Shown in pieces: positions 20,791 to 62,872 of a stretch of DNA of 64,000 bases; the stretch's first letter is position 1, and each line of letters begins with the position of its first letter. The DNA comes from Neorhizobium sp. SOG26 (GTDB taxonomy: Bacteria; Pseudomonadota; Alphaproteobacteria; Rhizobiales; Rhizobiaceae). Location: NCBI RefSeq assembly GCF_003491345.1, contig NZ_CP025512.1, forward strand, positions 3,187,001 to 3,251,000, given 5' to 3'. The translations under genes and the position numbers were made by a program. Below the pieces are notes generated by a model. The model saw only the letters and a program-made list of their open reading frames with translations, made no database searches and was not told the origin of the DNA.

Positions 20791-20955
20791 TCCGCGTCTC
20801 CGCATGCCATTCGTCGTGCAGTTCGCAACCGCTATAGCCCAGGCGCCGGCCGAAGAACAGCGTTTGTCCCGATCGCGGTGCTCTGAGCATCGGTGCATAT
20901 ATTGGGCAAATGCTCAGCTCTGCGTCCGGCGCATTGCTGCATTGCAATAGCCGCT

Positions 20956-20984: not shown

Positions 20985-20990
20985 ACTCAC

Positions 20991-21109
20991 TCATCGAACG
21001 ACGCACTCCTCCTCCCAGCGTCGTGCGATATGGATCGACAACATCCTCCTCCTCCCAGTTGTCGATCAAGTTTAAAGCCTGGCGCACCTCCTCCCGCGCC
21101 AGGCTTTTT
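20991..21109 (+). ncRNA. Three-hairpin small RNA with CCTCCTCCC loops, copy 1
   Basis: Three consecutive hairpins: ACGACGC/GCGTCGT (20998-21024) with loop ACTCCTCCTCCCA; GATCGACAAC/GTTGTCGATC (21033-21067) with loop ATCCTCCTCCTCCCA; and AAAGCCTGGCGC/GCGCCAGGCTTT (21074-21107) with loop ACCTCCTCCC, ending in TTTTT, which makes it the terminator. Each loop carries CCTCCTCCC, which can pair with Shine-Dalgarno sequences. I relate it to the rhizobial alpha-r8 (MmgR) family from memory of its loop motif. A second copy lies at 62327. The 5' end is inferred from the promoter. Confidence 0.88.
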
Positions 21110-21178
21110 GCATTTCAGGCTTTCAGAAAACCATGCCCGTCGCCGCCGGCATCACCGGCGGCTTTAGCTTATCAGCGT

Positions 21179-61716: not shown

Positions 61717-62205
61717 TCACGCGGGCGTATCGCTGACGGCGACCTGTTCCTGGGCCACATCGATCCACACGGCACCGGTTAGTTCAGCCATGTGGTCCGG
61801 TGCGATGCGCACCGCCGCATTGATCGCGCCGGCGGCCGGCACAACGATTGCATGACGTTTCAGCGACACGTCACAATAAACCGGCAGCGGTGTCGCCAGG
61901 CCAAACGGGCAGACCCCGCCCACCGGGTGGCTCGTCAACGCCACGACTTCATCACCACCCAGCATGCGCGGCTTCGGGCCGAAACGGTCGCGGAACTTGC
62001 GGTTATCAAGCCGGCTCATGCCGGACATCACCACCAGCATGGTTTCATCGCCGGCGCGCAGGCAGATGGTCTTGGCGATCTGGTCTGCGTCCACTCCATG
62101 CGCCTCGGCGGCAAGCTGGACGGTCGCCGAACTCTGTTCGGTGACGATGACATCGATCTCAGGGGCTTTGAGGGAGAAGAAATTGCGAACGGATTCAAGG
62201 CTCAT
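61717..62205 (-). CDS. YbaK/ProX-family aminoacyl-tRNA deacylase
   Basis: A 162-residue protein that hydrolyses mischarged tRNA, such as Cys-tRNA(Pro). The family core with AAEAHGVDADQIAKTICLRA, the Lys in the first segment and HPVGGVCPFGL are clear. Cytoplasmic. Single gene, divergent from the small RNA copy 2. Confidence 0.92.
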   Translation of the reverse strand: MSLESVRNFFSLKAPEIDVIVTEQSSATVQLAAEAHGVDADQIAKTICLRAGDETMLVVMSGMSRLDNRKFRDRFGPKPRMLGGDEVVALTSHPVGGVCPFGLATPLPVYCDVSLKRHAIVVPAAGAINAAVRIAPDHMAELTGAVWIDVAQEQVAVSDTPA

Positions 62206-62290
62206 GGTGGCAAGATGGCCGAGCCTTGGGCGGCTCGCAAGCCCCTCTTCTTCTACCCATGCAGAAAATGCATTGCTGCAGTGCGAAATT

Positions 62291-62320
62291 TTGACTGTTT
62301 TTTAAGCCGTGCTCCTATAT
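62291..62320 (+). promoter_or_regulatory. Promoter of small RNA copy 2
   Basis: TTGACT (62291-62296) and CTATAT (62315-62320) with an 18-base spacer. The -10 matches the rhizobial consensus exactly. Confidence 0.65.
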
Positions 62321-62326
62321 AGTCAA

Positions 62327-62447
62327 ATCATCGACAGGCGCACTCCTCCTCCCAGCGCCTCCGATGGGACCAGCAACACCTCCTCCTCCCGGTTGTTGGT
62401 CAGTATCGAAAGCCCGGCGCTCCTCCTCCCGCGCCGGGCTTTCTCTT
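62327..62447 (+). ncRNA. Three-hairpin small RNA with CCTCCTCCC loops, copy 2
   Basis: Three hairpins in the same order as at 20991: AGGCGC/GCGCCT (62336-62360) with loop ACTCCTCCTCCCA, identical to the loop of copy 1; GACCAGCAAC/GTTGTTGGTC (62368-62401; one G-U) with a loop containing CCTCCTCCTCCC; and AAAGCCCGGCGC/GCGCCGGGCTTT (62409-62442) with loop TCCTCCTCCC, the terminator. Stems differ from copy 1 through compensating changes. The 5' end is inferred from the promoter. Confidence 0.88.
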
Positions 62448-62662
62448 TGTCCGGGACTGACGAGAGGCACCTCACCGAGAGGCGCTGCATCTTGACGTTT
62501 GCACGTCGTCAGCCTAGATGATTTCGCATCGATATTTGTTTGATAAGCCAGCACGACACGCTTCCCGCGTCAGCGACGATCTTTCTTCAAATACGAAACT
62601 CACCGTTTTTCGCAGGCGACTGCGCGGAACAAGTCGGTCTTATTTGCATGAAAGGCATCGTT

Positions 62663-62872
62663 ATGGCGACCGGTACTGTAAAGTGGTTCAACGCAACCAA
62701 GGGTTATGGCTTCATTCAGCCGGATGATGGCGCACAGGACGTTTTCGTTCACATCTCCGCTGTTGAGCGCGCTGGCATGGGCCAGCTCAAGGACGGCCAG
62801 AAGCTCTCCTACGAACTTGTAACCGACAAGCGTTCGGGCAAGGTTTCGGCAGACCATCTTCAGGCTGCTTGA
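62663..62872 (+). CDS. Cold-shock protein (CspA family)
   Basis: A 69-residue single cold-shock domain with RNP1 KGYGFIQ and RNP2 VFVHIS. It binds single-stranded RNA/DNA and unwinds mRNA structure. The ATG at 62663 begins [10 protein letters not shown]; the upstream open frame is the untranslated leader, over 100 bases long, as is usual for regulated csp genes. A terminator follows. Confidence 0.96.

Follow-up and report, generated by a model that had tools for sequence, protein, structure and literature searches.

The 64,000-nucleotide (nt) stretch of Neorhizobium sp. SOG26 DNA analysed here (contig NZ_CP025512.1, positions 3,187,001 to 3,251,000; referred to as the window) carries two small RNA (sRNA) genes, 41.3 kb apart, with the same anti-Shine-Dalgarno (aSD) loop motif, and this raises the question of what these genes do and whether they are redundant or differently timed. 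We focus on the downstream one, copy 2, and report that it is an αr14 copy, i.e., a further member of an RNA family that has already been published. Our data make it highly probable that copy 2 represents a trans-acting αr14 sRNA, activated by a regulator of the LsrB/VtlR kind and transcribed from a σ70-type promoter, which would silence mRNAs by aSD pairing; regulator binding, expression and silencing are predicted. Family membership, stem covariation, fixed loops, a shared operator and synteny were all computed here, and the elements of the locus are as follows.

62260 to 62284, + strand: composite operator, TGC-N7-GCA-T-TGCTGC-AG-TGC, starting 66 nt before the sRNA; fits published motifs of the LsrB/VtlR type
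62291 to 62320, + strand: core promoter of σ70 type, TTGACT-N18-CTATAT, read from the sequence; loci of this class conserve CTGTTTTTTAAGC between -35 and -10
62326 to 62446, + strand: αr14 (NfeR1-family) sRNA gene, copy 2 (Rfam RF02344)
62336 to 62360, + strand: hairpin 1 with loop ACTCCTCCTCCCA, from folding; outer pairs join 62328-62333 with 62362-62367
62368 to 62401, + strand: hairpin 2 with CCTCCTCCC in the loop, from folding and pairing in orthologues
62408 to 62443, + strand: hairpin 3, an intrinsic terminator with CCTCCTCCC in the loop and a T-rich tail behind it, from folding and pairing in orthologues

The match to RF02344 (αr14, the NfeR1/'cuckoo' family) covers the whole model (1-123 of 123) at window positions 62326-62446 on the + strand, scoring 106.5 bits where 58.8 is the cutoff. 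An earlier reading of the sequence alone (the sequence-only reading) had proposed a pair of paralogous aSD sRNAs with three hairpins in the same order and an identical first loop. This was borne out: both copies match αr14, the three hairpins of copy 2 with their aSD loops lie at 62336-62360, 62368-62401 and 62408-62443, and ACTCCTCCTCCCA is the same in copies 1 and 2. All three hairpins of copy 2 have CCTCCTCCC in the loop and, with at most one mismatch allowed, CTCCTCCTCCCA is found five times in the window (0.37 expected), a number reached by none of 100 shuffles. The predicted folds of the copy 2 and copy 1 RNAs are stable relative to shuffles (-57.6 kcal/mol, z -7.1, and -53.3 kcal/mol, z -10.5, respectively), and the six CCTCCTCCC/CCUCCUCCC loop motifs of the two copies are all predicted to be at least 99% unpaired (0.994-1.0).

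The stems were also claimed to have changed in a compensatory manner, and for the orthologues of copy 2 we find that this is the case. The alignment comprised 55 sources (the window, 50 named loci and four loci outside the genus); the named loci were drawn by a pattern made of the copy-2 promoter and the first loop, so that these parts match by construction, but the stems and the later loops do not. Pairing is kept in 98.4% of the 1511 cells, and 12 of the 28 pairs have double-sided changes: one in hairpin 1 (helices 1 and 2), five of ten in hairpin 2 and six of 12 in hairpin 3. None of 500 shuffles equalled the observed value for four of the five covariation measures and 22 of 500 did so for the fifth (further pair types); the shuffles ignore relatedness, and these counts are not probabilities. 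Sliding the partner positions in the alignment lowered pairing to 30-48%. Whether the stem changes break pairing had been set as a check beforehand, and in the orthologues pairing was conserved. The copy-2 locus thus has the variable but pairing-preserving stems that are a trait of αr14.

The promoter letters given in the sequence-only reading are present (TTGACT at 62291-62296 and CTATAT at 62315-62320), and upstream of them lies the composite operator. The LsrB motif of NfeR1, which LsrB activates in S. meliloti, is TGCA-N6-GCAT of the T-N11-A type (PMC10746234), and the VtlR/LsrB consensus is GCAT-N3-TG-N3-T (PMC8844928; PMC7486931); the sequence at 62260-62284 includes both. Another αr14 trait is a σ70 promoter preceded by a T-N11-A box of the LsrB type, and at copy 2 this box, TGCAGAAAATGCAT, opens the operator. 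The AbcR1 promoter also contains an LsrB site (PMC8844928), and in Agrobacterium AbcR1 depends on VtlR (PMC7486931).

The pattern TGC-N7-GCA-N-TGCTGC-NN-TGC stands 83-85 nt before the first loop in copy 1, copy 2 and a copy on contig C3 (85 nt in the latter). In the 4.56-Mb genome there are exactly three exact sites, all before these αr14 copies, together with one extra site at one mismatch, and a reversed control gave none; since the pattern was drawn from these very copies, only the absence of other sites is independent evidence. A looser form of the operator gave 164 sites in 57 genomes of the genus against eight for the reversed control (summed counts). Thirty of the genus sites were fetched; a triple aSD RNA follows 82-86 nt downstream in 24 of them, αr15 follows in one, and no Rfam RNA does so in the other five. 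Conversely, the operator is present at 30 of 30 fetched copy-1 loci, 32 of 33 copy-2 loci and 47 of the 50 named copy-2 loci. Three genus loci (L240, L246 and L262) have sequences after the operator that are similar by eye, with no αr14 or other Rfam family above cutoff; this element could be a further target that the regulator controls.

Operator sites occur in 85 of the 121 genomes from the wider family. Among 29 such sites that were fetched, four lie directly before a triple aSD RNA, seven before a DUF1127 gene with αr14 downstream and two (L289 and L294) before αr15/AbcR, which follows the operator in L249 as well. In the seven DUF1127 loci (L265, L271, L274, L276, L281, L283 and L286) the order is operator, small DUF1127 gene and then one or two αr14 copies, an arrangement resembling Rhodobacter ccaF1-CcsR, but with a box of the LsrB type. 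Open reading frames after the boxes in L273 and L285 look DUF1127-like by eye; these gave no Pfam match and were excluded from the count. In one family member (L297, 1501-1975) three tandem αr14 copies follow a box and an open reading frame that is DUF1127-like by eye.

Transcription is suggested by what is known for Agrobacterium. In three Agrobacterium loci RF02762, the C1_109596F 5' untranslated region (UTR) thermometer, follows αr14 after 0-14 nt (gapless in L119, 227 nt). The C58 RNA just before C1_109596F is C1_109477F (109477-109594), which is 118 nt by sequencing and approximately 120 nt on Northern blots (PMC3738593). From spacing and synteny, rather than from the C58 sequence itself, we infer that C1_109477F is the counterpart of copy 2, and by the same spacing the start of copy 2 transcription would be at approximately 62329. 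The reads per kilobase per million mapped reads (RPKM) for C1_109477F in rich log, rich stationary, AB and induced cultures were 1503, 413, 15354 and 24677 without terminator exonuclease (TEX) and 16287, 3009, 37950 and 34389 with TEX (PMC3738593), that is 10-fold (without TEX) or 2.3-fold (with TEX) higher in AB than in rich log. Its profile resembles that of AbcR1 (r 0.988, third of the 23 non-coding RNAs in the table; eight libraries), which is consistent with the proposed control. A search by name gave PMC3738593 as the sole paper on C1_109477F; other names and some journals were outside its scope.

In that paper C1_109477F is filed as antisense to Atu0105 (Table 4), the mRNA of which was not detectable (PMC3738593). 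Copy 2 might likewise be a cis-antisense RNA acting mainly on an overlapping gene on the opposite strand, and some antisense frame is indeed open over the stretch in 41 of the 55 orthologues. The distance between the first and the last loop, however, falls in all three frame classes among the orthologues (36, 16 and 3), which means that no reading frame is preserved on the antisense strand, and conservation tracks the loops and the RNA pairing. We therefore disfavour the antisense function and regard it as very improbable.

A second alternative concerns the downstream neighbour, the csp gene. The genes flanking copy 2 and the csp promoter are:

61717 to 62205, - strand: YbaK-like aminoacyl-tRNA editing domain protein, divergent neighbour (Pfam PF04073, 82.2 bits; synteny)
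62491 to 62519, + strand: separate csp promoter, CTTGAC-N17-CTAGAT, read from the sequence; the CTTGAC form is present in relatives
62663 to 62872, + strand: cold-shock protein gene csp, 69 amino acids (Pfam PF00313, 79.2 bits), probable counterpart of Agrobacterium cspA (Atu0106)

The csp start codon at 62663 agrees with the position upstream of a cold-shock gene that had been noted before, and the proposed check for synteny with csp in relatives gave a kept order of tRNA-editing gene, sRNA and csp. The count was anchored on the YbaK-like gene and not on the RNA: in all 29 genus loci with enough sequence (the thirtieth, L062, is cut) the start of this gene and the first loop motif are 132-138 nt apart, and csp comes next after the sRNA in 28 of the 29. 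The editing gene is present in 50 of 50 named loci and csp in 46 of 50, with two of the remaining four being cut sequences. Outside the genus the order is rarer: four of 27 further family loci have the triple motif, two of these with csp, and none of 26 loci from the order has it.

Given this synteny, the hairpins could act as a leader or partner of csp, with control in cis through read-through or thermosensing. The csp leader weakly matches the cspA thermoregulator RF01766 (37.4 bits, below the gathering cutoff of 78), and in C58 the annotated 5' end of cspA (109596) is just past the end of C1_109477F (109594; PMC3738593), adjoining ends that leave some room for a processed joint transcript. 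Nevertheless, C1_109477F (approximately 120 nt) and cspA (approximately 500 nt) give separate Northern bands and their RPKM differ strongly (PMC3738593). The sRNA and csp are separated by a terminator hairpin, csp has its own promoter with the CTTGAC form in 18 of 19 hand-picked rows, and two family loci (L085 and L089) carry the sRNA beside ybaK without csp. Pairing of the copy-2 loop with the csp start is very weak (-2.3 kcal/mol), and 103 of 136 background sites are as strong; this background, used for all pairing energies here, consists of the start sites in the window, chance frames included. Folding of the interval from the sRNA to csp shows no unusual stability (z +1.2). With the terminator and the separate promoter we disfavour a leader function and consider it very unlikely; neither the csp promoter nor the loop pairing revealed a functional tie of the sRNA to csp or cold shock.

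For a trans-acting RNA the question is then which mRNAs it would act on. In S. meliloti NfeR1 silences two transporter mRNAs and ntrB via redundant aSD loops (PMC10746234). We identified 36 sites of the form GGGAGGAG-N3-11-ATG in the genome against six for a control; two of the 36 are complements of αr14 loops (copies 1 and 4). Thirty of these sites were fetched, 20 gave a frame of at least 100 amino acids and 18 of the 20 were scanned against Pfam (the first eight chosen by eye; L182 and L184 left out), with the result that five are parts of transporters and three have no family. The ntrB start was considered as a distinctive target and rejected: it pairs at -7.6 kcal/mol over -25 to +5, and 31 of the 136 start sites are as strong. 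Over a 65-nt stretch ntrB gives -13.1 kcal/mol, a value not comparable with the background for -25 to +5.

Taken together, we propose that 62326-62446 is a stand-alone gene for a trans-acting sRNA of the αr14 (NfeR1) family. A putative LysR-type regulator of the LsrB/VtlR kind would bind 62260-62284 and recruit RNA polymerase to the σ70-type promoter at 62291-62320, and the resulting RNA of approximately 120 nt would end at the intrinsic terminator, hairpin 3. The CCUCCUCCC loop on each of its three stable hairpins is predicted to pair with extended Shine-Dalgarno sequences of the GGGAGGAGG type, which may block the start of translation on many mRNAs, probably mainly those of nutrient uptake and metabolic genes. 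The operator-bearing copies, having the same loop motif, would form a largely redundant, co-activated set. Transcription of the counterpart, activation by LsrB and aSD silencing by NfeR1 are taken, by analogy, from papers on relatives; for LsrB binding, transcription, mRNA silencing and the identity of targets at copy 2 itself, we infer the same.

Several observations weigh against this proposal. With respect to the operator, 36 of the 121 genomes in the wider family lack a box and 16 of the 29 fetched family boxes have no assignable partner. The strict VtlR box reads GCAT, but the box core of the 50 named copy-2 loci is GCAA in 34 and GCAT in 13 (three have no box), and all nine loci named Agrobacterium read GCAA; moreover, an Agrobacterium search with its own 15-bp footprint consensus gave only VrsA as a further site (PMC7486931). 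Generic scans listed nothing at copy 2, neither for a σ70 consensus promoter nor for a consensus terminator, the latter scan having a loop limit of 8 nt. Only one of six αr14 copies in S. meliloti was reliably detected on Northern blots (PMC7143759), and a given copy may therefore be silent. Likewise, the count of candidate target sites is weakly supportive because such sites are strong Shine-Dalgarno sequences, and ntrB does not stand out.

We now turn to whether the two window copies are under the same control. Copy 1 has the following elements:

20904 to 20915, + strand: palindrome GGGCAAATGCTC upstream of copy 1, of a type found only at copy-1 promoters
20921 to 20945, + strand: composite operator of copy 1, starting 67 nt before the sRNA
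20988 to 21111, + strand: αr14 sRNA gene, copy 1 (Rfam, 109.2 bits), next to a divergent RNase D-like gene (named by eye)

From the different promoters, the sequence-only reading had suggested differently timed control of the same targets. The core hexamers do differ and copy-specific elements exist, but the same composite operator precedes copies 1, 2 and the C3 copy; the timing part is mostly unsupported, because this shared operator fits the published LsrB/VtlR site and matches exactly at just three places genome-wide.

Given the copy-specific elements, the copies may nevertheless have diverged somewhat in control, and in a subfunctionalised pair copies 1 and 2 would have common targets and separate control. 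In a quick tree of 30 copy-1 and 33 copy-2 sequences the two loci separate cleanly with none misplaced (support 0.958), suggesting old paralogues and not recent duplicates. The palindrome GRGCAWWTGCYC is present at 21 of 30 copy-1 promoters and at none of the 33 and 50 copy-2 promoters, while a T-rich spacer, CTGTTTTTTRRKC, lies between -35 and -10 in 30 of 33 copy-2 promoters (in the 50 named loci by construction). The box form points in the same direction, with GCAT in 30 of 30 fetched copy-1 loci and mostly GCAA at the named copy-2 loci; yet one further copy-1 locus (G016) reads GCAA and copy 2 of the window reads GCAT as copy 1 does, so box form does not separate the two window copies.

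NtrC provides a second layer of control on S. meliloti NfeR1 (PMC10746234). In the 160 nt upstream of either window copy, however, the NtrC motif TGC-N11-GCA does not occur, and among relatives it is found at seven of 30 copy-1 and six of 50 named copy-2 promoters. It has been reported for S. meliloti and, in the text covered, not for Agrobacterium or Brucella, and is limited to plant symbionts (PMC10746234), hence it does not define the αr14 family. With the main operator and its spacing common to both copies, we view subfunctionalisation as a tentative, less probable reading, and differences in strength or extra inputs between the copies as possible. Under the proposed co-activation, the question of redundant versus differently timed paralogues becomes a direct test, with one operator and differing nearby elements.

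The genome (three contigs) has four αr14 copies that pass the cutoff, two more than the pair first noted. Three of the four are on contig C1 and the other is on contig C3. The C3 copy (L003 1401-1620; approximately 1041979-1042199 on C3) has four CTCCTCCC loops, and the fourth copy (C1, 1203752-1203872) has degenerate loops and lacks an exact composite operator. Each of the 57 genus genomes has 3-9 αr14 copies; among 150 sampled genomes of the order, 46 show a match at a threshold of E 0.001 and 22 when the family cutoff is applied. The named contigs on which the copy-2 promoter pattern occurs are from Neorhizobium, Rhizobium, Agrobacterium and relatives. For copy 1, each of the 30 loci fetched has the RNase D-like gene, identified by eye, at a distance of 188-237 nt. 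Searching plasmid records with promoter and sRNA together gave 497 matches, chiefly in Rhizobium (347) and Sinorhizobium (99), all of them spanning less than 80% of the query; the αr14 family is therefore present on secondary replicons too.

How does copy 2 compare with known systems? RNAs built of three hairpins, with aSD loops on variable stems and encoded several times in one genome, have been described (PMC3927594 section 2.7; PMC7143759; PMC10746234), as has the DUF1127 association (PMC10253847). In the literature covered we did not meet paralogues resolved by locus, the longer shared operator, or C1_109477F as αr14. We lean, with some reservation, towards the view that an operator longer than the published box, TGC-N7-GCA-N3-CTGC-NN-TGC, unites stand-alone αr14, DUF1127-αr14 and AbcR genes in Rhizobiaceae, and that one redox-sensing regulator would drive redundant aSD RNAs; part of this may already be in print. 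C1_109477F would then be a trans-acting αr14 RNA, its GCAA box perhaps having been missed by strict searches. A Northern-verified Agrobacterium 'antisense' RNA is thereby suggested to be trans-acting and probably controlled by LsrB, which, if true, would connect a redox regulator with the silencing of uptake genes.

Copy 2 is like αr14/NfeR1 (RF02344) in its three hairpins with CCUCCUCCC loops, variable stems, size (approximately 120 nt), several copies per genome and LsrB-type box with σ70 promoter, and differs in its ybaK-csp context and in lacking, within 160 nt upstream, the NtrC motif of S. meliloti NfeR1. C1_109477F of C58 is alike in size and in directly preceding the cspA 5' UTR (C1_109596F, RF02762), but was filed as antisense to Atu0105 and not as αr14 (PMC3738593). 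SmelA075, SmelA099 and the 'cuckoo' RNAs, proposed to be a single family (PMC3927594 section 2.7), share three or four hairpins with CCUCCUCCC loops, and SmelA099 has four hairpins just as the C3 copy has four loops. The αr15/AbcR1-2 RNAs (RF02345) are also sRNAs of the aSD type, with the same operator before αr15 in three of our loci (L249, L289 and L294); these constitute a separate Rfam family and interact with Hfq in S. meliloti, whereas NfeR1 does not (PMC8844928). Finally, CcsR1-4 of Rhodobacter sphaeroides (RF02791) are stress-induced and have the CCUCCUCCC motif, with a weak Rfam overlap (27.0 bits, below the gathering cutoff of 65.3), but share a transcript with the DUF1127 gene ccaF1, driven by an RpoHI/RpoHII promoter (PMC10253847), whereas copy 2 stands alone.
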